DNA of 64,000 nucleotides from an uncultured Bacteroidota bacterium. GTDB lineage: Bacteria; Bacteroidota; Bacteroidia; UKL13-3. The notes beneath the pieces are model-generated. The model did not search any database. It was given only the letters and a program-made list of their open reading frames with translations, and was not told the DNA's origin. The stretch is from positions 1 through 64,000 of the forward strand of contig CAISCU010000014.1 in NCBI GenBank assembly GCA_903883965.1, written 5' to 3'. Within the stretch, counting starts at the first letter, position 1; each line of letters starts with the position of its first letter. Below are positions 15,449-30,859 of this stretch, one piece after another. Made by a program: the position numbers and the translations under genes.

Positions 15449-16927
15449 TTAAGGCCTTACCAATTTTGAAACAATGGTTTTGCCTTCTGTTTGGGCAAAA
15501 GCTGTTTTTTTGATGGCATAAATTTGGTCAACCATAGCTTTGTGTTTGCCCTGTAATTCAATAATGGGTGCAGGGTAATCCACTCCTATTTTAAACCGAT
15601 ACATGTCCGCTTCTAATGGGCTAATCAACCATGGTTGGGCAATCAATTGAGTAGGTAATTTTGACAATTCAGGAATCCATTTTTTAATAAATTCAGCATC
15701 AGGGTCGTGTTCCAATGCATTTTTAACTGGGTTATATACCCGCAAAGTATTTACCCCTGTAGTACCTGCCTGCATTTGAAATTGCGTATAATGAATACCT
15801 GGCTCATAATCTAAGAACAACTGAGCCAAATGATATACCCCCAATTTCCAATCAATGTCTAAATGGTGGGTTAAAAAACTCACCAACAATGCACGCATCC
15901 TAAAATTGACCCAACCTGTTTGCATCAATGCACGCATATTGGCATCTACCAATGGAATTCCGGTATTGCCTGTTTTCCATGCTTGTAAAAAATGGGCATT
16001 GTTTGAAGCTTTAAGTTGCTCAAAAGCTTTGTTAATGGCTTTGGTTTCGTAAGTACAGGCTTGTTCAAATTTTTGTACAAAATGATCATGCCATTTCAAA
16101 CGGGTTAAGAAAGCTTGCAGTGGTCTTTTATTTTTAAGTGTTGCTTGTTTTTGCTTGCTAGCATAGTACACCTGCCTCAAAGACAAATTGCCCCAAGCTA
16201 TATAAGGCGAAAGCCGGCTACACGATTTTCTACTTTGTGCTGGTTTTGAAATATGGAATGGATAATTGTAAAAGCGTTCGTTCAAAAAACTCTGTAAGTA
16301 TTGCCATGCATGCACTTCGCCTCCAGGCTGAAACAGTGCCTCTTTTGCCGACCATTGTTTTATAAGCGTAATTGGTACTTGAAACGGATGTTGCGTTATA
16401 AAAGCTTCAAAAAAACTTGGATTCAACCCTGCTGAGTAGGTATTTATTAATGGCTTTTCAGCCATATAAGTATGCCACTGTGCATCCCATTTTTTTCTGT
16501 TTTGTATGGCTCTCAATACGCTATTTCGTTGGTATTGATGCCATTGAATGCCCTTTGATTTAAAAAATGAGGCAACTTGAAGGTCTCTTTGGAATGTTTT
16601 TTCTATTCCTGATTCTTGGTAAGAAAATAATTGATGAATTTTAAAATTTTCATTGAACCATTGAAACACTTCAATGGCCTCTGCATAAAACAATACAGGA
16701 ACACGATTGGTTTCAGACCAACTTAGTTGCATGCTTTGCAAAGATTGAAATTGGAAACGCAGGTGTCTATCAGCACAATCAGGATAAGCAAGCATACTTG
16801 GTTCAAAAATAAACAGCACTACATAAGGCAAACCATTCAATTCTGCTTCCGCCAAAGGAAAGTGGTCTTGGGTGCGCAAATCGCGTTTTAACCAAACCAA
16901 ATTGAGTTGTTGCTTTGCTGCTTGCAT
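15449..16927 (-). CDS. phr: Deoxyribodipyrimidine photolyase (class I/cryptochrome family)
   Basis: DNA photolyase with the usual order: N-terminal antenna (Rossmann-like) domain (LNLVWLKRDLRTQDHFPLAEA ... VVLFIFEPSML, about 7-135), linker, then FAD-binding helical domain (SRLSPYIAWGNLSLRQVYY ... TGNTGIPLVDANMRALMQTGWVNFRMRALLVSFLTH ... DYEPGIHYTQFQMQAGTTG, about 230-450). FAD-contact motifs are well conserved, so light-driven repair of cyclobutane dimers is likely. 492 aa is normal. It is the last of three consecutive photolyase-family genes and begins 12 nt after the stop of the middle one, implying an operon. Confidence 0.92.
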   Translation of the reverse strand: MQAAKQQLNLVWLKRDLRTQDHFPLAEAELNGLPYVVLFIFEPSMLAYPDCADRHLRFQFQSLQSMQLSWSETNRVPVLFYAEAIEVFQWFNENFKIHQLFSYQESGIEKTFQRDLQVASFFKSKGIQWHQYQRNSVLRAIQNRKKWDAQWHTYMAEKPLINTYSAGLNPSFFEAFITQHPFQVPITLIKQWSAKEALFQPGGEVHAWQYLQSFLNERFYNYPFHISKPAQSRKSCSRLSPYIAWGNLSLRQVYYASKQKQATLKNKRPLQAFLTRLKWHDHFVQKFEQACTYETKAINKAFEQLKASNNAHFLQAWKTGNTGIPLVDANMRALMQTGWVNFRMRALLVSFLTHHLDIDWKLGVYHLAQLFLDYEPGIHYTQFQMQAGTTGVNTLRVYNPVKNALEHDPDAEFIKKWIPELSKLPTQLIAQPWLISPLEADMYRFKIGVDYPAPIIELQGKHKAMVDQIYAIKKTAFAQTEGKTIVSKLVRP

Positions 16928-16939
16928 TGTTAGTTGAAT

Positions 16940-18040
16940 TTATTTACTGGAATACTTTTTTTCCAAAGCCTTCTCACATTTTTTCCAATAATTAAAAAAA
17001 GAAATAGCTGGCACAGAACTATCGGTCAATAGCCAATTCCTTGCTTCTTCTGTTCCTCTATAATGTTTGTTCAAGGGATGCTCTTTGAATACAAACTTTG
17101 CATTTGGAAAAGCAATTTGCAAGCTGTCAAAATCTCCTACATACAGGTTTAAGTCTGGAATTTCTTTGGCCAATTCTAAAGCAAAATCCAAACAATTATT
17201 TGAAATGGGGTATTGCTCAAAATGTGAAGGCTCTAGTATCAATACCCTATTTACCTTTTCATTTGAATGCCAAGTTGGCGAAAGGTTGTAATAGTTATAC
17301 AATAAAACAGTTAAACTTTCATCTATATCAAAAGCTTCTGCAATGGGCAATTGAGTGCTGAGCATCAAGGGAGATGCTGCTTTAAAACTTTCAGGAATTT
17401 GCAAAGTTTCTAAAGCTTCATACGAACAATCAATCAGAGTTCCTATTTGGTTTGACCCAGTAAATCGGTTGATATTTTCTTGATTGGCAATGTATTTTTT
17501 GTTAGAAAAAGAGCCTGCTACCCATTGCCAAGAAAGGGCATTGGATCCCCAGTCTCCATCTTTTAAATAGTAATACATCCATTTTGCAGGTTTGAGCCAA
17601 TGGGCACCCATTACATTACAGGCTAAAAATGCCGTGTACATGCGCACATGGTTGTGCATATAACCTTCTTTTTCTAACTCAAGAATTGCCTGATCAATGG
17701 CAGCTATACCTGTATGTGCCTCTATAATAGCACTTGGAATTTGATGATGCAAGACTCCTGTTTGAGCTTGTTTTAAATCCGAATCAATGGCTGTTAATTG
17801 TTGTTGCCATACCCGTTGAAAAAAATCACGCCAAGCCAATTGTTGGGCAAAGCCTTTGACCTCATTGAAACTGTAACCCTCTTGCATCAAGGTATCCAAT
17901 ACCAATGAAGTATCTATGACCCCACGGGCAATATATGCAGAGAGTCTACTAACTGCGCCATTGGTATAATTTCTACTTTTGGCATACCCAATTGGATCTA
18001 TCGACTGGATGTTTTTGATAAGGTTTAAATAGGTTTGCAT
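16940..18040 (-). CDS. Photolyase-like FAD-binding protein with domains in swapped order
   Basis: The FAD-binding domain of the photolyase/cryptochrome family comes first (about 5-225): SRLSAYIARGVIDTSLVLDTL, QQLAWRDFFQRVWQQ, MHNHVRMYTAFLACNVMGAHW, LSWQWVAGSFSNKKYIANQENINRF. There is no N-terminal antenna domain. Instead the last 120 residues form an alpha/beta unit (RVLILEPSHFEQYPI, LNLYVGDFDSL, KFVFKEHPLNKHYRGTEEARNWL) that resembles, strand by strand, the N-terminal domain of the adjacent photolyase (VVLFIFEPSMLAYPD...). It therefore looks circularly permuted. Repair activity is unproven. The start overlaps the upstream gene by 16 nt. Confidence 0.8.
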   Translation of the reverse strand: MQTYLNLIKNIQSIDPIGYAKSRNYTNGAVSRLSAYIARGVIDTSLVLDTLMQEGYSFNEVKGFAQQLAWRDFFQRVWQQQLTAIDSDLKQAQTGVLHHQIPSAIIEAHTGIAAIDQAILELEKEGYMHNHVRMYTAFLACNVMGAHWLKPAKWMYYYLKDGDWGSNALSWQWVAGSFSNKKYIANQENINRFTGSNQIGTLIDCSYEALETLQIPESFKAASPLMLSTQLPIAEAFDIDESLTVLLYNYYNLSPTWHSNEKVNRVLILEPSHFEQYPISNNCLDFALELAKEIPDLNLYVGDFDSLQIAFPNAKFVFKEHPLNKHYRGTEEARNWLLTDSSVPAISFFNYWKKCEKALEKKYSSK

Positions 18041-19539
18041 GTCGCTTGGTCAAGTTTTGATAAAAATTGTTGGGCCGTATTCAATAGTTGGGTCTGTTTT
18101 TCAGGGAGCATTCTATCAAACGAATGTACCATCATACCCATTCTAGGATTGCTCAGAAAAAAATCACGGTGAACATGCACAAATCGCCAATACAAGGCAT
18201 CCCATGTTAGGGTCCAATTGCCCTTTTCAAAATCACCCATTTTTAACAAATAATTACTACCACAGATGTAGGGCTTGGTGCTCATCAATCCGCCATCGGC
18301 AAACTGCCCCATGCCATATACATTTGGAACCATCACCCAATCATAAGCATCTACAAACAACTCCATAAACCAGGTATAAACAGCATTGGGCTTTATTTCG
18401 CACAACAACATCAAATTGCTCAATACCATTAAGCGTTCAATATGGTGGCAATAGGCATTGTTCAATACTTTTTGTAAAACATTGTCAAAAGGCAACAAAC
18501 CTGTATTGCCTGTATAAAAACTGTCAGGCATTTCTCGGGTAAATTGCCAAAAATTACGGGTTCTTTGTTGGCGACCTTTGCTGTAATAAACACCTCTAAT
18601 GAACTCTCTCCACCCAACCAATTGCCTTACAAAACCTTCTGTTTGGTTCAAAGCAATTTGCTTGTTTTGAGCGGCTTGTAATACCATTTCTAAAACTTGT
18701 TGCGGACTTTTCAAACCATTGTTTAAAAACACCGACAATAAGCTGTGGTGTAGCAAAGGTGCTTGCACAAGCATGGCATCTTCATAGGTTCCAAACAGTT
18801 CAAAACGCTTTTCAATGAAATCTTGCAACCACAATTGAGCCCCTTTGTGCGAAACCGGGTACTTGAAATCGCCGTTGAACTGACCTAAAGCCTCAGGAAA
18901 ATACATTTGCACATATTGCTCAGCTTCTAAAATAAGCTTTGCATCTGAATCTGAAACACATTGTGGCAAGGCTGGAACGGCTTGGTTTTTAGGAAAGCGT
19001 TTGCGGTTGTCTTCATCAAAACTCCATTTACCACCCATGGGCTGATTGCCATCCATTAACAAGTTAAAATACTTGCGTTGGGCTGTATAAAAATTGGCTT
19101 GTAAAAAGCTTTTTTTGTTATCGAAATAAGCTCCAATTTGTTTTAAACTCAATAGAAACTGCCGGTTTTCATACCAAGTTAGTTGTATATTTAGATGTGA
19201 TGCAGCATGTATAATTTTAGTTTTCAACCAATCATCGTCAGGTTCATAAAAAGCCAATTGTGAACAATTGTTCTTTGCCCAATGGACCATTAAATCTGAA
19301 ATGGAAATAGATTGCCCCTCTGAAGCAATGTATTGAACTTGAACTGGCTTCTGTTGCAAATAGGCCTGATAATATTGCATGGAGGCCCTGTGCAAAACCA
19401 ATTTTTGTTTGTGAAAATGCAATTGCGTAAAAAACAACTCCTCTTCTACCAGAGCAACTGAATGAACTGTTTCAGGCAATGCCTCGAATAGCTGATTTGG
19501 GAAAACGACTAACAAAAATGAAGGAGTTGAACTATTCAT
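18025..19539 (-). CDS. CryPro/FeS-BCP-type photolyase-related protein (PhrB-like)
   Basis: Member of the prokaryotic cryptochrome/(6-4)-photolyase group. The N-terminal DPRP-type domain (FLLVVFPNQLFEALP ... ASMQYYQAYLQ) is followed by the helical FAD domain (AYCHHIERLMVLSNLMLLCEIKP, WVMVPNVYGMGQFADGGLMSTKPYICGSNYL, NWTLTWDALYWRFVHVHRDFF). The usual CxxC plus later Cys of the iron-sulfur cluster are not present: the corresponding stretch reads FEKGNWTLTW. The ORF track starts at 19593; ATG at 19539 (MNSSTPSF) fits the domain start better and gives 504 aa. First gene of the photolyase trio. Confidence 0.88.
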   Translation of the reverse strand: MNSSTPSFLLVVFPNQLFEALPETVHSVALVEEELFFTQLHFHKQKLVLHRASMQYYQAYLQQKPVQVQYIASEGQSISISDLMVHWAKNNCSQLAFYEPDDDWLKTKIIHAASHLNIQLTWYENRQFLLSLKQIGAYFDNKKSFLQANFYTAQRKYFNLLMDGNQPMGGKWSFDEDNRKRFPKNQAVPALPQCVSDSDAKLILEAEQYVQMYFPEALGQFNGDFKYPVSHKGAQLWLQDFIEKRFELFGTYEDAMLVQAPLLHHSLLSVFLNNGLKSPQQVLEMVLQAAQNKQIALNQTEGFVRQLVGWREFIRGVYYSKGRQQRTRNFWQFTREMPDSFYTGNTGLLPFDNVLQKVLNNAYCHHIERLMVLSNLMLLCEIKPNAVYTWFMELFVDAYDWVMVPNVYGMGQFADGGLMSTKPYICGSNYLLKMGDFEKGNWTLTWDALYWRFVHVHRDFFLSNPRMGMMVHSFDRMLPEKQTQLLNTAQQFLSKLDQATCKPI

Positions 19540-19607
19540 TCTAATCCAACAATTCAGTTTTTTTTTAGTTTTGGTAATTGAGATAAAATTCAATTACAAC
19601 TGTAGTT

Positions 19608-22090: not shown

Positions 22091-22105
22091 TTACTTTCCG
22101 ATACA
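22091..22105. repeat. Distal attachment-site copy (direct repeat)
   Basis: TTACTTTCCGATACA, identical to 27039-27053. The flanking bases differ (g/t versus t/a), so the identity is limited to 15 bp. Confidence 0.7.
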
Positions 22106-22147
22106 TGAAACGATAAGAAACAAAAAACGCTGAAACCCTTGTAAAAA

Positions 22148-22433
22148 GTGAATTTCGAGAAGTATTTCGAGCAACAAGTGAAAAACCGAAATCAACAGCT
22201 TGAAAAATCCTATTGACGATTTTACTTCAAAAAGGTTAGACACTTAAGATATGATGCAAATGCTTCGTGTCAGTCACCGCACCATGGACAATTATATCAA
22301 AGCTGGGAAACTCACCCCTACTCGAATCAATAAACGCAATTACTTCGCGATTAATCAAGTTAAGGGATTGATGCGTATTCCTGAAGTTCCCAAACCCAGT
22401 TCCTTCCAGGAAATACATTTGACTAACATCTGA
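22148..22433 (+). pseudogene. Decayed helix-turn-helix (excisionase/MerR-like) gene
   Basis: The track shows a 60-residue ORF from 22251 with a clear HTH (MLRVSHRTMDNYIKAGKLTPTRINKRNYF). The same frame continues upstream through a TAA as NPIDDFTSKRLDT*D, and in the next frame upstream there is VNFEKYFEQQVKNRNQQLEKS beginning at a GTG (22148). Joined, these read as one protein of about 95 residues, with one frameshift in an A-run and one stop codon. Small HTH proteins of this kind are common in Bacteroidota integrative elements. Here it lies just inside the distal island repeat, consistent with the remains of the recombination or regulation module. A functional short protein from 22251 cannot be excluded. 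Confidence 0.6.
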
Positions 22434-22511
22434 TGAATAGGAAAGCAAAAGAGGAAAACAATTATTTTGTTCAAATGGCGGTTCAATTTTGTGAACTGAA
22501 CTAGCACTAAC

Positions 22512-23675
22512 TTACACCTCATCACGAACTGGCAAAAAGCCTTTGTCGCCTAGCTGTTTGATAATGCTCCTAATTAAATAACTATTATCAAATCTTAAAA
22601 CGTACTTGCGTGTACCCTCTTTCTCTGGGATTAACATTTTACGATCAATTAATTTTCTGATTTGTCGAGATACTTCCGCATCCGCTTTCCCTGAAAAAAA
22701 ATCTTTTATATCAGATGCTGAAATTACCTGCTTATCTACAACTCTTTTAAGAATTTTAGCCTCAACGTCTGTGATGAACTTTCTTTCTAGAGAATGATGG
22801 ATTGACGGAAGCAAAATCTCCTTGCGTAAGAAATCATAATCAGACAACTTATCAATCTTTTCAATCTCATCTTTTAGGCCTTTTAAAACATACTCAATCC
22901 ATGAAGTAAGACCTTCAACTGTACCTTTGTCGGCTTCAGACAAAAAGTTGTAATAGTCATTCCTATTGCTGCAAAACACCGCTGTTGGATTAATAATCCT
23001 ACCAACATTTACGTTGAAGCCAGCTTTAACAAGCATGGCGTATGTAAACAACCTTACGGTTCTACCATTTCCGTTTCCAAATGGGTGAATCCAAACAAAA
23101 CGATGATGTGCGATTGCTGTTTTAAGTAAATCATATTTGGGACTATCACCTTTATTTACAAATTCAAGTAATTCATTCATGTAATCTTCAACTGCTAACC
23201 ATTCAGGCGGCTTATGTGAAGATTTATTTATTTTTAAATTTACTTTTCTGTAATCCCCAGGAGTTGAATCACCTTCTCCATCTGGTGGTGGAAGTAAACC
23301 ATCAACTATCTTTTTATGCATCTCACTAAGAAAAGCCCTATTTATTGGATAGTCGCTAACGTTCTCTTCTATAAAAGCCATCGCTTTTTCAATATTCTGA
23401 ATTTCACGAATACTTGGAGTATCGACTTTGATGTCCGATAATTTTGTCTCTATGTATTCAGCAATTGTTGTGTTATTCCCTTCAATTCTTGCTGATCCGA
23501 TACTTTCTAAAGTATGAAAGATGTGTTTCAGTTGAAAAAACACTTTAGGGTGAGTTGAGCCACTTAACTGCTTCTTACGCAAGTGATCCAATTCGATGAT
23601 TAAATCAGTTAGAGCGGAATCGAAAGTCGGCTCTACCAATTTCAAATCATAATGTTTAAATACTGCTTCTGACAT
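22512..23675 (-). CDS. Fic family protein (putative nucleotidyltransferase), with N-terminal inhibitory helix and winged-helix C-terminus
   Basis: Fic-fold enzyme, most of which transfer AMP or other nucleotides onto target proteins. An N-terminal Fic_N-like region carries an inhibition motif S-x-x-x-E-G (SARIEGNN), followed by the Fic core with the catalytic loop HPFGNGNGRTVR (about 197-208). The canonical motif is HxFx(D/E)GNGRxxR, and here the acidic metal-binding position is Asn. The C-terminal part (about 290-380) looks like a winged helix (AEVSRQIRKLIDRKMLIPEKEGTRKYVLRF), suggesting DNA binding or autoregulation. 387 aa is typical for this subgroup. It is encoded inside the island, downstream of the HipB-like regulator. 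It may act as a toxin or host-modifying enzyme; no partner antitoxin gene is adjacent. Confidence 0.88.
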   Translation of the reverse strand: MSEAVFKHYDLKLVEPTFDSALTDLIIELDHLRKKQLSGSTHPKVFFQLKHIFHTLESIGSARIEGNNTTIAEYIETKLSDIKVDTPSIREIQNIEKAMAFIEENVSDYPINRAFLSEMHKKIVDGLLPPPDGEGDSTPGDYRKVNLKINKSSHKPPEWLAVEDYMNELLEFVNKGDSPKYDLLKTAIAHHRFVWIHPFGNGNGRTVRLFTYAMLVKAGFNVNVGRIINPTAVFCSNRNDYYNFLSEADKGTVEGLTSWIEYVLKGLKDEIEKIDKLSDYDFLRKEILLPSIHHSLERKFITDVEAKILKRVVDKQVISASDIKDFFSGKADAEVSRQIRKLIDRKMLIPEKEGTRKYVLRFDNSYLIRSIIKQLGDKGFLPVRDEV

Positions 23676-23692
23676 TTGAAATATCTTTTTTG

Positions 23693-23726
23693 ATGAATTA
23701 ACAGATTACATTTTAATGAATTAACA
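23693..23726. promoter_or_regulatory. Direct repeats upstream of fic (possible operator)
   Basis: ATGAATTAACA occurs at 23693-23703 and 23716-23726, 23 bp apart on the same face of the helix, 18-50 bp upstream of the fic start. They may be binding sites for Fic's own winged helix or the nearby HTH protein. The rest of the 250-bp gap (23676-23926) holds no gene and no visible HipA remnant. Confidence 0.35.
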
Positions 23727-23926
23727 CTATTAATTGATTATTCCTTATTTATCAATACTTTACAAGTATACGTCATTTTTCATTAATTTACATTTCCAGA
23801 TTGAAACATTTGCATTCTGCATGTTTAACAATTAAACATCAATGAATAATTATTTGTCAAATTTCCATCAAAACAGGTATAAAAATGAGCACTGTCTTAG
23901 CGAGATTTATCAATCACAAAACACGC

Positions 23927-24256
23927 CTATTCTTCAAGTATCCTTTTCTTAAACTTTGGCGCTCTCTTCTTAGTCAATATCCCCGCATCTTGAAGTTTCC
24001 TTCCTAAAATATCCTCTCCAGCAACCTTTAATAGGTCTTTTTCTAAACCTACAACAAATAGTACTTGCAGATAGCTGCCGATTGAAACGGTTGGACTTCC
24101 TTGCTCAATGTTGTAAATCGTTTTTCTACTTGTACCTGTCCTTTCCGACATTTGTTCTGAGCTTATTCTGCGGCGTAATCGCGCTAGTTTGATATTCTCT
24201 CCTAATTCTTTGAGAATTTTGAGATTCTTAGGCAATATAGCTGGTGCTGTTTTCAT
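23927..24256 (-). CDS. HipB-like XRE-family transcriptional regulator
   Basis: 109-residue DNA-binding protein with an XRE-type HTH (LGENIKLARLRRRISSEQMSERTGTSRKTIYNIEQG, about 19-53) followed by VSIGSYLQVLFVVGLEKDLLKVAGEDILGRKLQDAG, a tail I associate with regulators that sit before HipA toxins. No hipA gene follows; the next gene on the strand is fic, 251 bp downstream. It is therefore either an orphan antitoxin-like repressor or the regulator of the island. A 14-bp perfect inverted repeat flanks its promoter and overlaps its start codon, pointing to autoregulation. Function as repressor likely, partner unknown. Confidence 0.82.
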   Translation of the reverse strand: MKTAPAILPKNLKILKELGENIKLARLRRRISSEQMSERTGTSRKTIYNIEQGSPTVSIGSYLQVLFVVGLEKDLLKVAGEDILGRKLQDAGILTKKRAPKFKKRILEE

Positions 24257-24315
24257 TTAATGTGTTATATAAGTTACAAATATTGGATATTTTGAGTAAT
24301 TTATAACACATTAAA
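24256..24315. promoter_or_regulatory. Inverted-repeat operator of the HipB-like gene
   Basis: TTTAATGTGTTATA (24256-24269) and its exact complement TATAACACATTAAA (24302-24315), 32 bp apart. Weaker matching continues inward (AAGTTAC / GTAATTT). The first arm overlaps the ATG of the HTH gene and the space between contains a one-mismatch -7 box (AATATTTG on the minus strand), as expected for an autorepressor bound at two sites. Confidence 0.55.
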
Positions 24316-24504
24316 AAATTTATCTGGTTCAATAATTCATCCAAATGCATGAATTTTTCCAATTTTTTCATGCAATATGGATAGGATATTCTTATAAGCC
24401 AGGGACCTGATAACTTTCTGTTTTAGGAATGAAGCTAATACCATGGTAAAATACTCCTACAATTCAACAATAAAGGTAGCGCACTTCTGAGTTTGTTGAT
24501 CCAT
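24316..24504. other. Intergenic region inside island
   Basis: About 190 bp between the operator and the stop of the fusion gene. It has AT-rich imperfect repeats (CATGAATTTTTCCAATTTTTTCATG) but no ORF or clear terminator. Confidence 0.4.
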
Positions 24505-26676
24505 TTAAATCAAAACCTTTCTAAAAATCCCAACTACCCTCAAGTTTTGGGTTTCTTCATTGCGAAGTACAATAGGCTCGTATGCCATTGTAGATTTTGG
24601 CAATAGTTGAATCTCCAAATGCTCAAATGATTCCTCAGAAATCACTTTCTTGCTGCGATACTCCTTCACCGTATAATTCGATCCAAAATCTGAATCTTTG
24701 AAATCCGTTAATTCCACCAGCGTTATTAACCCATTGCGCGATCCATGTTGGTATCGCTCAAACAAACAAATCGATCCATTGGGAATGATTTTATTCATGG
24801 ACTCCCCAACAACCTTACATGCAAAAAAATCGTTCTTATTCTTTAATTGCGATTCCAATTCAATAAACTGTAACGATTCAACCTTCTGAATTCCACTAAA
24901 TAACCCTGCCGCAATTTTTAAATCGTAAAAAGGAATTGTGAATGAATTCGGTTCATCCAATATCCGCAAAGAAACGGAATTATTAGCCGCCTCAAAAGTT
25001 CTAAAATAGCCTTTTAAATACTTGCGCATTCCTTGATTACAAGCATATATAAAAGTTCCTTTCATCCCCCTTAGCATAATGGTTCTGTAAATATTGATTA
25101 TAAAATTATGAAGAACGTCATAGTCTGTAATGGTATTTTTACCAGCCTTATCCTTATAATTTTCCTTTATCACAATTAATTTCTGCTTCTCAAAATCATA
25201 ATCAATCTCAGGCCCAATAATTACACCTGTATAATTCAAATCATAGCCCTGGGTAGTATGAATGCAGCCTACTTCATTAATCGCATTTGTAGAATTCACC
25301 CAATCAATCGCCAAACTATTCCATCGTAGTTTTACATCCTGAATCTCAATATCAAAAACTAATTTATCCTTCTTCGACTTCCATTCCCAAGCATATCCTG
25401 CCACCATTCTTGACAAACCATCCATTTTATCTTTCCTACCAATCGCTTCCACCATATCCTGAATATTATCATAAATTAAGCATTCATATTCGGGCGACTG
25501 ATATGTTGAACCAGAAGAAATTTTGCCACTAAAAACATCATTCAGCAAATTCACATATTCATTTCCACCTTTGCAACGGAACTGTGTTTTCAAAACTTCA
25601 ATTCTCGTATATTCACTATGCTCTAATGCATCAAATCTTTCACGCAACACATCTGATGGTTTCACACTTTGATTGCGGTCATAAAATAATAACAACTTAT
25701 TCGATTGTTTAATTAACCAATCTAACTCAGATGCTTTTGAATGATCAAAACCTAATTGAGCACATACCTCATCAAAAGGTTTAAAATAAGGACCCAAATT
25801 AACCCTTCTCCTCAATCGATGTGCCTCATCAACAATCACCAAATCATATTTTCTTTTCGCCAAATCCGACGGTCCGATTACCATATTCGGCGATAACCCT
25901 TGAATATTTTTAAAAACCCTAGAAATGGTTTTTCTAAACGATGCCATGGGGATGCACAAAGCCATTTCCAAGTCGCCATAATGCAATCTTACTTGTTTCA
26001 GCAAATCAAACAACTCCTCATCTTGCTCATCAAAATCAGCGAAATTAAAATCATCTAAGTTTGTTTTGAGCAATTTGAATAAAAATATCGCTAAAATAGA
26101 CTTTCCAGTACCAGCCCCTCCTTGTATCAAACTTACTTTATTACCTTTATCAAGCAGGCATTCCAAAATCAATTTCAAACTTGTAACTTGCTCAGCAGAC
26201 AGAGATTTGTAAGGCGAATATTTAAACAAATCAGAATTACTAATATGTTCCAATGAATGCCTAGCAATTCCCAAAGTCCTCAACTCACTCCATATATCTG
26301 CGAATAAGTTCCAATACTCCTGTTTCTGATAATAGCGATGGTTGGCAATTCCCAAATTGCCATTCTTCAATTGATATTGCCCATCAGCATTAATGTATCG
26401 TATTAAATTCGACTCAACGTCCAAAGTGGCCGATTTATTAAAAAGCTCACTGAGTATCAAGCTCACAGAGGAAAGTTCCTTTTTATTGATCGATTTAGAA
26501 TGAGCGCGCATTCTTTTTATGACATCGGTTGTTTCCCCTACATATGCGCTTTTATTTTTATTATTATTTAAAAAATAAACTAGCGGCCAAGAAACAAAAT
26601 CTCTATGATTTAAGATAATTTCCGACTCTAAATCGGTATCAAAATTATAATTAGAAATTGTAAACTGTTTGCCCAT
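24505..26676 (-). CDS. GIY-YIG nuclease / DUF2075 helicase-like ATPase / S24 (LexA-UmuD-like) peptidase fusion
   Basis: 723-residue three-part protein. (1) Residues about 31-100: GIY-YIG-type nuclease (LVYFLNN...SAYVGETTDVIKRMRAHS, with Glu in DVESNLIRYI). (2) About 155-575: DUF2075 superfamily-1 helicase-like ATPase with Walker A GGAGTGKS (186-193), Walker B VIVDEAHRLRR (about 280-290), CIHTTQGYDLNYTGVIIGPE and YRTIMLRGMKGTFIYAC (540-555). (3) About 580-723: S24 serine-lysine peptidase with GESM (Ser626), a Lys in YTVKEY (Lys671), and an Ala-Gly bond in LKIAAGLFSG 35 residues before the Ser. It starts directly at the stop of the pyrophosphohydrolase gene (TAGATG). Probable role: nucleic-acid defence controlled by self-cleavage (inference). 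No signal or membrane segment. Confidence 0.85.
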   Translation of the reverse strand: MGKQFTISNYNFDTDLESEIILNHRDFVSWPLVYFLNNNKNKSAYVGETTDVIKRMRAHSKSINKKELSSVSLILSELFNKSATLDVESNLIRYINADGQYQLKNGNLGIANHRYYQKQEYWNLFADIWSELRTLGIARHSLEHISNSDLFKYSPYKSLSAEQVTSLKLILECLLDKGNKVSLIQGGAGTGKSILAIFLFKLLKTNLDDFNFADFDEQDEELFDLLKQVRLHYGDLEMALCIPMASFRKTISRVFKNIQGLSPNMVIGPSDLAKRKYDLVIVDEAHRLRRRVNLGPYFKPFDEVCAQLGFDHSKASELDWLIKQSNKLLLFYDRNQSVKPSDVLRERFDALEHSEYTRIEVLKTQFRCKGGNEYVNLLNDVFSGKISSGSTYQSPEYECLIYDNIQDMVEAIGRKDKMDGLSRMVAGYAWEWKSKKDKLVFDIEIQDVKLRWNSLAIDWVNSTNAINEVGCIHTTQGYDLNYTGVIIGPEIDYDFEKQKLIVIKENYKDKAGKNTITDYDVLHNFIINIYRTIMLRGMKGTFIYACNQGMRKYLKGYFRTFEAANNSVSLRILDEPNSFTIPFYDLKIAAGLFSGIQKVESLQFIELESQLKNKNDFFACKVVGESMNKIIPNGSICLFERYQHGSRNGLITLVELTDFKDSDFGSNYTVKEYRSKKVISEESFEHLEIQLLPKSTMAYEPIVLRNEETQNLRVVGIFRKVLI

Positions 26677-27009
26677 CTACAAAGAATTGTATTTATCGGC
26701 TTTTCCTTTAGATTTTTCAACCGGATATTTAGCAGCATTTTTAGCAATCTTTGAATCAATAATCGTAGTAAAATCTAAATTATAATGATTCATGAGTAAA
26801 AGCGCATATGAAAATACATCGGCCAATTCTTCTTTAACTTTCTCTAGATTGGCATTATTAGGTGATTTCCATAAGTACAATTCCATCAATTCATTGGCTT
26901 CTATAGATAGTGCAATAGCCAAATCTTTAGGATTGTGAAATTGCTCCCAATCTCTTTCATTTCTGAATTGAATAAGCTTCTGAACGGTATCTTTTATATC
27001 CTCTGTCAT
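26677..27009 (-). CDS. MazG-like / dCTPP1-type nucleotide pyrophosphohydrolase
   Basis: 110-residue all-alpha NTP pyrophosphohydrolase that converts a (d)NTP to (d)NMP and PPi. RDWEQFHNPKDLAIALSIEANELMELYLW closely follows the dCTPP1 (XTP3-TPA) pattern, with metal-binding Glu residues in EANELME and EELADVFSYAL. Such enzymes act on dCTP and modified dCTPs; the substrate here is not known. The gene abuts the fusion gene (stop and start codons adjacent), so the two products are made together. A perfect -7 box (TAAATTTG) ends four bases before its ATG. It is the first gene inside the island next to mnmE. Confidence 0.87.
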   Translation of the reverse strand: MTEDIKDTVQKLIQFRNERDWEQFHNPKDLAIALSIEANELMELYLWKSPNNANLEKVKEELADVFSYALLLMNHYNLDFTTIIDSKIAKNAAKYPVEKSKGKADKYNSL

Positions 27010-27013
27010 TCAT

Positions 27014-27021
27014 CAAATTTA
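27014..27021 (-). promoter_or_regulatory. Candidate -7 box of the pyrophosphohydrolase/fusion operon
   Basis: Minus strand TAAATTTG, then four bases, then the ATG at 27009. The position predicts a leaderless mRNA and gives the island pair its own promoter between the att repeat and the first codon. Confidence 0.4.
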
Positions 27022-27038
27022 ATGAATTTGTATGAGTT

Positions 27039-27053
27039 TTACTTTCCGATACA
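27039..27053. repeat. Proximal attachment-site copy within the mnmE 3' end
   Basis: TTACTTTCCGATACA, the complement of the last five mnmE codons (Cys-Ile-Gly-Lys-stop); identical to 22091-22105. Confidence 0.7.
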
Positions 27054-29481: not shown

Positions 29482-29886
29482 ATGGAATTAAAACCATACC
29501 TCATTTTTCAGGGCAATGCTGAAGCTGCCATGAATTTTTATATAGCTTGTTTTCAGGCAGAAATTGTTGGCATTAACCGTTACGACAATGCCCCAATGGA
29601 AATACCAGAAAATTACACCAACAAAATCTTGCATGCCGAAATTAAAATAGGCAGCCAATCTATGTTATTCTGTGATATTTTACCCGACCGACCTTTTGTG
29701 CAAGGCAGCAATTTCTCTATGTCGGTAGACATTCCTCAAGTTATGGAAATGGATAAAGTTTTCAATCAATTGGCGGTAAACGGTAAGGTTGAAATGCCCT
29801 TACAAGATACTTTTTGGGGAGCCCGTTTTGGCATTTTAATTGACCAATTTGGCATTAGGTGGATGTTGAACTGCGATTTAAATTAA
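29482..29886 (+). CDS. VOC family protein (PhnB-like glyoxalase/dioxygenase fold)
   Basis: 134-residue vicinal-oxygen-chelate fold protein: LKPYLIFQGNAEAAMNFYIACFQAEIVG at the start, KILHAEIKIGSQSMLFCDIL in the middle and LQDTFWGARFGILIDQFGIRWMLNC at the end, the standard PhnB-like pattern. The family includes enzymes of unknown specificity; no metal set can be confidently named. The track start at 29449 is replaced by ATG 29482, the family start. Its 3' end overlaps the convergent RT gene by 32 nt. Confidence 0.87.
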   Translation: MELKPYLIFQGNAEAAMNFYIACFQAEIVGINRYDNAPMEIPENYTNKILHAEIKIGSQSMLFCDILPDRPFVQGSNFSMSVDIPQVMEMDKVFNQLAVNGKVEMPLQDTFWGARFGILIDQFGIRWMLNCDLN

Positions 29887-30859
29887 AAGTTTTATATACT
29901 GCTTTTAAACGCAAAAAGGTATTGTAACAATTGGGGGTTTGTTCACCTTTAACCCTGGCCATATACCTAATTTTACCTAGCAAAATACGCACAAAATGTT
30001 GTTCGTTTGCAATGGCCTTGTGTTGATTTTTGCGCGCGTAATTTTGCATAGCATGGGTTAATCCATTCGTTTCTGCATCATGCAAAATGGCGCGCAACAA
30101 ACGGTAATACCGCCTGTCTAAATTCATTTTTTGATTCACTTTAATACCCGTTACATACTTGGCCTGATGGGGCCCAGCCATTCTGTATTTTTTAGGGTTC
30201 ACCTCAAAGCCTTCTTTCCATAAGAGTTCCATCACCAATTGGTCAAAGAAAATTGGGAAAGGAGTATGGCTCGAAAAACTCAAATCATCGGCATAACGGG
30301 TATAAATAATTGAGGAATTTAAATGCGATTCCAACAGTTGTTGCATCCTAAAATCTAAATGCCTGCAAACAATATTCGACAACAACGGAGAACTGGGCGC
30401 ACCCATAGGCAAACGCCCATCAATTGTGCACAACAATGCAAATTGAACCGCCATTTCATAAGTAAAACCAAAGGGTTCCAATTGCAATGCTGACACTACT
30501 TTTTTGGTGCTGATGGCATGAAAAAAATCTTTGATATCTAAGTTCAACAAATATGCCTTTTTCAAATGGCTGGTGGCATTGCTAAGGTTATTCCTATTAG
30601 AAAAAAAGGGTCCATTTTTCACAAAACCATGTACCTGATCTGGAGCTTGATACAGTTTGTTCAAATAACTGACAATGGCCAATTGTACACTTTTTAAATC
30701 CGGCTCTGGCGACTCAATGGTTCTTTTGCCCCCACTTTTCTTTGGAATTTGAAATGTGGTATATTTAGGGTTAGACATGAGTTCCATACAACGCAATATG
30801 TCTATGCGGTATGCTTCGCAAAAACTATCTAAACTATTGTATTTAATTGGATTGTTCAT
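29855..30859 (-). CDS. Retron-type reverse transcriptase
   Basis: 334-residue RNA-directed DNA polymerase. RT motifs in order: KKSGGKRTI (about 40-48), LNLDIKDFFHAI (106-117), GRLPMGAPSSPLLSNIV (RT4, 148-164), active site YADD (189-192), and NPKK. Two retron-specific marks are present: NAxxH (NATSH, 94-98) before the DIKDFF motif and VTG (236-238) in KYVTGIKVN. There is no maturase or endonuclease domain, so it is not a group II intron protein. Upstream on the same strand lies a 140-nt segment with terminal inverted repeats, read as msr-msd. It probably makes msDNA and functions in phage defence with a partner, most plausibly the DnaB-like protein upstream. Confidence 0.9.
   Translation of the reverse strand: MNNPIKYNSLDSFCEAYRIDILRCMELMSNPKYTTFQIPKKSGGKRTIESPEPDLKSVQLAIVSYLNKLYQAPDQVHGFVKNGPFFSNRNNLSNATSHLKKAYLLNLDIKDFFHAISTKKVVSALQLEPFGFTYEMAVQFALLCTIDGRLPMGAPSSPLLSNIVCRHLDFRMQQLLESHLNSSIIYTRYADDLSFSSHTPFPIFFDQLVMELLWKEGFEVNPKKYRMAGPHQAKYVTGIKVNQKMNLDRRYYRLLRAILHDAETNGLTHAMQNYARKNQHKAIANEQHFVRILLGKIRYMARVKGEQTPNCYNTFLRLKAVYKTFNLNRSSTST

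Follow-up and report, generated by a model that had tools for sequence, protein, structure and literature searches.

The DNA analysed here (the window, a stretch of 64,000 nucleotides from an uncultured Bacteroidota bacterium) contains a two-gene operon, made up of a MazG gene and the gene of a three-domain fusion protein, on an island of 4.95 kb (22091-27053) at the 3' end of mnmE. A sequence-only reading of this DNA had described the fusion gene as a single gene. That gene is real, but its MazG partner had been missed and its strand (minus) left unstated. The features of the locus are as follows.

22091..22105, minus strand: 15-bp direct repeat, other island end
22251..22433, plus strand: short excisionase-like HTH ORF of 60 aa, beside the second repeat; named by eye
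22512..23675, minus strand: Fic protein (SoFic-like), island cargo
23927..24256, minus strand: HTH regulator (HipB-like), part of the island cargo; the closest relative alone has a homologue
24505..26676, minus strand: GIY-YIG / Schlafen-group-3 helicase / S24 fusion protein, 723 aa; ATG at 26676
24529..24933, minus strand: S24 (LexA-like) peptidase domain, residues 582-716
24664..24666, minus strand: catalytic Lys671 (YTVKEY)
24799..24801, minus strand: catalytic Ser626 (GESMN)
24904..24909, minus strand: predicted self-cleavage bond A590/G591 (motif IAA/G)
25039..26139, minus strand: SLFN-g3 (ex-DUF2075) SF1-type helicase domain, residues 180-546
26347..26589, minus strand: GIY-YIG nuclease domain, about residues 30-110; active-site Y34, Y45, R55, H59, E88, N105
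26677..27009, minus strand: MazG-like / DCTPP1-family nucleotide pyrophosphatase, 110 aa, its stop codon directly before the fusion ATG; catalytic E37, E40, E61, D64
27039..27053, minus strand: 15-bp direct repeat, one island end; last codons of mnmE

The island is delimited by an exact 15-bp direct repeat, TGTATCGGAAAGTAA, at 22091-22105 and 27039-27053, where 0.11 matches are expected when up to two mismatches are allowed. Its cargo consists of the MazG, fusion, HTH and Fic genes and the excisionase-like ORF; no integrase was found in the window's island. The mnmE 3' end is also the site used by SGI1 in Salmonella. In the relatives with a readable mnmE flank (G002, G011 and G023, the flank of G011 being short) the repeat is present once only. 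G003, a genome of the same genus, keeps the neighbouring genes in collinear order and has another operon between them, which encodes MazG and a PD-(D/E)XK/Schlafen-helicase protein (L093/L183). The island looks mobile. An unbiased PADLOC scan of the neighbourhoods did not show an enrichment of known defence genes: matched families numbered 60 among 111 operon neighbours versus 114 among 111 random genes from the same genomes. The defence-type genes present among the neighbours are UG5 reverse transcriptase, RdrB-like, SIR2, Ppl-like and SoFic. About 3 kb from the operon lies a retron-type reverse transcriptase gene (29858-30859, minus strand, 334 aa; RVT_1, 5.6e-19), which matches PADLOC RT-Protease_XI at 6e-84 and is without the fused effector of those models. 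Elsewhere in the window, three photolyase/cryptochrome-like genes, recognised by eye, stand in a row (15449-19593, minus strand) and are collinear in G003.

The sequence-only reading had placed a GIY-YIG nuclease, a complete DUF2075 ATPase and a LexA-type S24 Ser-Lys peptidase in one 723-aa chain, and the domain search and structure prediction it called for bear this out. Both end domains score above their Pfam gathering cut-offs (GIY-YIG at residues 32-71, 28.1 bits versus 22.6; Peptidase_S24 at 582-716, 27.9 bits versus 23.3). Between them, SLFN-g3_helicase (PF09848, formerly DUF2075) is matched above its gathering cut-off with 202.6 bits (1.4e-59) over profile positions 2-353 of 354. The catalytic residues are intact in all three domains. 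In 15 of 15 aligned proteins, the GIY-YIG residues Y34, Y45, G47, R55, H59, E88 and N105 and the helicase residues K192, D283, E284, Q336, R367, Q476 and R536 are invariant. According to the AF2 model, the helicase part is nearest in fold to the SF1B-type enzymes Upf1, Dna2, RecD2 and SLFN11, with the SLFN11 structure 7zel matching at 3.6e-8. The three-domain layout recurs in homologues down to 43-50% identity, and because the whole architecture is found in several Bacteroidota families, the fusion is not due to chance. A contig or frame artefact is ruled out as its source, since many genomes, including single-contig chromosomes, have the fusion.

The fusion protein has no match to the Schlafen-core (RNase) family in the Pfam scan (E up to 1), no HsdR family match in domain and profile scans, and no DNA-recognition domain was found in it; inspection by eye of the ORFs around its gene recognised neither HsdM nor HsdS. 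In PADLOC-DB 2.0.0 it has no full-length match to any catalogued system, its partial matches being to PDC-S14 (GIY-YIG part) and AbiO/Nhi (Walker region). Promoter and terminator scans gave nothing exceeding shuffles. A search of published open-licence papers found none joining GIY-YIG with DUF2075, DUF2075 with anti-phage activity, or LexA-like S24 domains with helicase defence fusions.

The association with MazG extends well beyond the window. In Bacteroidota, Actinobacteria, Bacillota and other groups, 42 Schlafen-helicase loci with a GIY-YIG or PD-(D/E)XK N-terminus could be evaluated; 37 of them have MazG as a neighbour and 35 have it directly upstream, typically overlapping the helicase gene by 4-14 nt, often by 4 nt. 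Profile comparison places the window's MazG in the DCTPP1 (dCTP pyrophosphatase 1) family (PDB 6sqw, 3.5e-29), and the residues of its EXXE/EXXD metal site (E37, E40, E61, D64) are invariant in 16 proteins. It shares with DCTPP1 (RS21-C6) all four metal-binding acids and the MazG-like fold; unlike DCTPP1, its gene forms an operon with that of a nuclease-helicase. The substrates of DCTPP1 enzymes are dCTP and 5-modified dCTPs. MazG has no match in PADLOC-DB 2.0.0. Control of the operon by an SOS box is ruled out, since no CTAA-N5-TTAG sequence occurs upstream of or near MazG, and one-mismatch matches are fewer than the chance number. On a Paenibacillus plasmid, an S24-less GIY-YIG/Schlafen-helicase gene (L062) adjoins a DUF3578 gene, without MazG.

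The MazG partner is more constant than the S24 tail, which is optional: the forms in Actinobacteria and Bacillota, sampled in one scan of genome contigs and in plasmid and phage records, share the MazG operon, have no tail and end at about residue 558, just before the tail position. The existence of these forms indicates that the tail is an add-on regulator, which the nuclease-motor does not need. The N-terminal nuclease is exchangeable, being GIY-YIG in the window family and PD-(D/E)XK-like (called by eye from the motif DF...VELKxW) in the relatives L018, L021 and L093. The GIY-YIG/Schlafen family is sporadic: an initial survey recorded it in 8 of 37 related genera. In phage and plasmid records only S24-less or distant relatives were encountered, except on one Halomonas megaplasmid. 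Carriage by viruses was rejected, as viral contigs contained no relative.

The tail keeps the parts of LexA in the order of LexA: A589-A590/G591, S626 and K671. In an alignment of fused tails, whose rows are related and represent one clade rather than independent samples, P1 is Ala in 29/29, P1' is Gly in 28/29 and P2 is Ala in 28/29, and the catalytic Ser and Lys are present in all 28 readable rows; the two exceptional tails come from a disrupted gene (TAG) and from a fragment at the end of a contig (AAS). The A-G bond lies at a LexA-like spacing of 35 residues from the Ser in 28 of the 29. Among controls from the same phylum, P2 Ala occurs in 18/26 LexA-size and 3/25 UmuD-size proteins, and all three of the latter are without the catalytic dyad; P2 Ala is found in 0/14 catalytically intact UmuD-size proteins versus 28/29 fused tails. 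Eleven UmuD-size S24 proteins of Bacteroidota (L136-L146) have lost the dyad, with Ala or Glu for Ser and Arg for Lys, and have Thr-Gly in place of Ala-Gly at the cleavage site; they appear to be an inactive UmuD-like group. The full-length AF2 model is poor in the S24 part, and this domain was therefore refolded alone, giving a model of moderate confidence (pLDDT 69.6) whose best Foldseek matches are the C-terminal domains of LexA and lambda CI. The tail has the features of MEROPS S24 of the LexA type, namely the S24 fold, an Ala/Cys-Gly bond and a Ser-Lys dyad. Sequence and model thus support the view that it is a LexA-type self-cleavage module. While it resembles LexA, UmuD and lambda CI in A-G bond, Ser-Lys dyad, spacing and fold, it differs from them in three respects: it is C-terminal on a nuclease-motor rather than part of a repressor or polymerase factor, it has an insertion of about 8 residues between Ser and Lys, and it belongs to a separate clade. 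In the tree, all fused tails form this single clade (100/100), apart from LexA and UmuD, which rules out a recent fusion of a host LexA or UmuD as the source. Within it, the tails of PD-(D/E)XK/Schlafen proteins group with HsdR tails (99/98), not with GIY-YIG/Schlafen tails, so the S24 module has passed from one kind of host protein to another.

The tail clade is present in 18 of 396 Bacteroidota genomes, on GIY-YIG/Schlafen proteins in 10, SauUSI-type proteins in 5 and HsdR in 2, with one copy cut off at a contig end. Apart from this last copy, the identified host proteins in the 396 genomes are only ATP-driven nucleases. A profile search of 395 genomes returned the same carriers, minus the window genome, and no further host protein. 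The carriers of about 1130 aa (L084, L085, L086, L087 and L088) are SauUSI homologues with the tail added (PDB 7clg, 2e-214 over 4-927; PADLOC mREase_IV, 1.2e-223); 7CLG is SauUSI itself, an enzyme specific for 5mC/5hmC (PMC7913695). In 5/5 of these loci, a NUDIX gene (MutT/pyrimidine-dNTPase-like; PADLOC candidate PDC-S07) lies upstream and overlaps the start of the SauUSI-type-S24 gene. Thus, with MazG beside the GIY-YIG/Schlafen proteins and NUDIX beside the SauUSI type, an NTP pyrophosphatase accompanies the tail in two of the three kinds of motor. The HsdR-like carriers (L089, L090; about 1180 aa) are encoded beside hsdM-like, hsdS-like and AAA ATPase genes.

The window protein can be set beside further known systems. 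Like SauUSI-type enzymes, it combines a nuclease and an ATP-driven motor in one chain, and the Bacteroidota relatives of SauUSI share with it the S24 tail as well as the NTP pyrophosphatase gene immediately before their own. It differs from SauUSI in having GIY-YIG instead of PLD and an SF1/Schlafen-type instead of an SF2 helicase, and in that no SRA-like recognition domain was found. With the group 3 Schlafen proteins SLFN11 and SLFN13 it has the homologous helicase domain in common, GIY-YIG taking the place of the Schlafen core nuclease. As to type I HsdR, two HsdR fusions carry the same tail, and the logic that we propose, restriction alleviation, is the same. In the case of EcoKI, this alleviation consists of destruction of the HsdR motor by ClpXP, and the degron was not found (PMC4231737); in general terms, danger to host DNA leads to destruction of the motor (PMC4231737, PMC11109961). 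The HsdR of EcoKI is without an S24 tail, whereas the window protein, with no hsdM or hsdS recognised beside its gene, would possess a built-in degron exposed by cleavage. A tail on HsdR that exposes a degron upon host DNA damage would fit the logic of EcoKI alleviation, and we extend this logic to the window protein.

The host genome encodes RecA and a UmuD-like protein; no canonical LexA scored over the cut-off, and an XRE-S24 regulator of the Bacteroidetes-LexA type with a VKAG cleavage motif (L082, contig C30) is the probable host SOS repressor, the XRE-S24 type being the one that runs the SOS response in Bacteroidetes (PMC8565304). Cleavage of LexA exposes a ClpX signal (Neher et al. 2003, cited in PMC4231737). 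The host tmRNA tag is GESNFAMAA, and since it ends in -MAA, a C-terminal -AA degron fits the host cell.

Based on this, our main reading, to which we give a probability of about 0.42, is that the operon is a two-gene restriction-like defence module with the self-cleaving tail as a built-in restriction-alleviation fuse. The GIY-YIG/Schlafen-helicase, judged by its intact active sites, would be an ATP-driven motor that loads on DNA, probably foreign or modified, and cuts it. MazG, as a member of the DCTPP1 family, would destroy certain (d)NTPs, with dCTP or 5-modified dCTP as the likeliest substrate, and so keep target-making nucleotides out of host DNA. Upon contact with RecA-ssDNA filaments, or when the motor is engaged for too long, the tail would cut its own chain at A590/G591. 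The remaining nuclease-motor of 590 aa would then have -IAA at its C-terminus, which, by comparison with LexA, would be a latent ClpXP degron. The enzyme would thus be destroyed when host DNA is damaged. The role assigned to MazG, removal of 5-modified dCTP such that host DNA offers no target, is the weakest step; it is argued from the DCTPP1 family, the NUDIX parallel and the 5mC/5hmC specificity of SauUSI. The case for a defence function is indirect, and draws on the tail being common to SauUSI-type and HsdR enzymes, the mobile-looking island and the sporadic distribution. Against the fuse reading stand the lack of an SOS box at the operon, neighbours that are not PADLOC-enriched and the failure to find a DNA-recognition domain. 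In addition, P2 Ala may reflect ancestry and not a degron, as LexA also has AA/G.

The sequence-only reading suggested an effector that DNA damage or phage attack would either release or inactivate. This is plausible, and of these two outcomes we favour inactivation, because cleavage at 590/591 would leave -IAA, P2 Ala is kept in nearly all fused tails and S24-less homologues exist. Release followed by activation is the main rival to the fuse reading, although we consider it rather unlikely. The tail would then be an inhibitory cap, and its cleavage upon DNA damage or phage-made ssDNA would free an active GIY-YIG/helicase that kills phage or cell (abortive infection). The conversion of UmuD to UmuD' demonstrates that S24 cleavage is able to activate, and here the tail is fused to a nuclease and its full self-cleavage set is conserved. 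However, the tail-less homologues of Actinobacteria and Bacillota have the same MazG operon, which argues that the core needs no removable cap; the conserved -AA stub suggests destruction; and the same tail is shared by HsdR and SauUSI-type enzymes, each with a substrate gating of its own.

It is also conceivable, but improbable, that the tail performs no regulated self-cutting and serves as a dimerisation platform or cuts in trans, for instance a repressor or phage protein. S24 C-terminal domains, such as those of LexA and UmuD', dimerise, and nuclease-motors often act as dimers (SauUSI, PMC7913695). Neither role, on the other hand, needs the A-G bond, which with its LexA-like spacing is retained in all but one of the tails. 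Quite improbable, finally, is a device for DNA repair or nucleotide-pool stress rather than one against phages, combining a stalled-fork SF1 helicase with dNTP sanitation: Dna2, Pif1, RecD2 and SLFN11 among the fold neighbours, the house-cleaning nature of MazG and NUDIX enzymes and the missing enrichment of defence neighbours would fit it, whereas the sporadic distribution, the island with its 15-bp repeats, the second, different MazG-SLFN operon that a sister species has at this mnmE-proximal site and the presence of the tail on bona fide restriction-enzyme families speak against it.

The fuse reading can be widened to the whole clade, in a form that we regard as distinctly doubtful: one LexA-related S24 clade would be a transferable self-destruct fuse, acquired by no fewer than three unrelated types of ATP-driven restriction motor (Schlafen-helicase, SauUSI and HsdR). 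In response to RecA/ssDNA signals, the tail of each motor would cut it, and degradation via the exposed -AA degron would follow; two of the three would also travel with a (modified-)dNTP pyrophosphatase, by which target bases are kept from entering host DNA. How ATP-driven restriction motors spare host DNA that is damaged or undergoing recombination has long been asked. If true, a tail with the full LexA cleavage set, present on nucleases of the HsdR, SauUSI and Schlafen-helicase types, would directly connect the DNA-damage signal with the lifetime of a defence enzyme, and in a genetically simple way. The nucleotide pyrophosphatase, as a near-constant partner, hints at a second layer that has been little explored, in which nucleotide-pool hygiene serves as self-protection. 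Being shared by two other kinds of restriction enzyme, the tail may act as a fuse of general use, by which damage to the cell's own DNA turns these enzymes off (or on).
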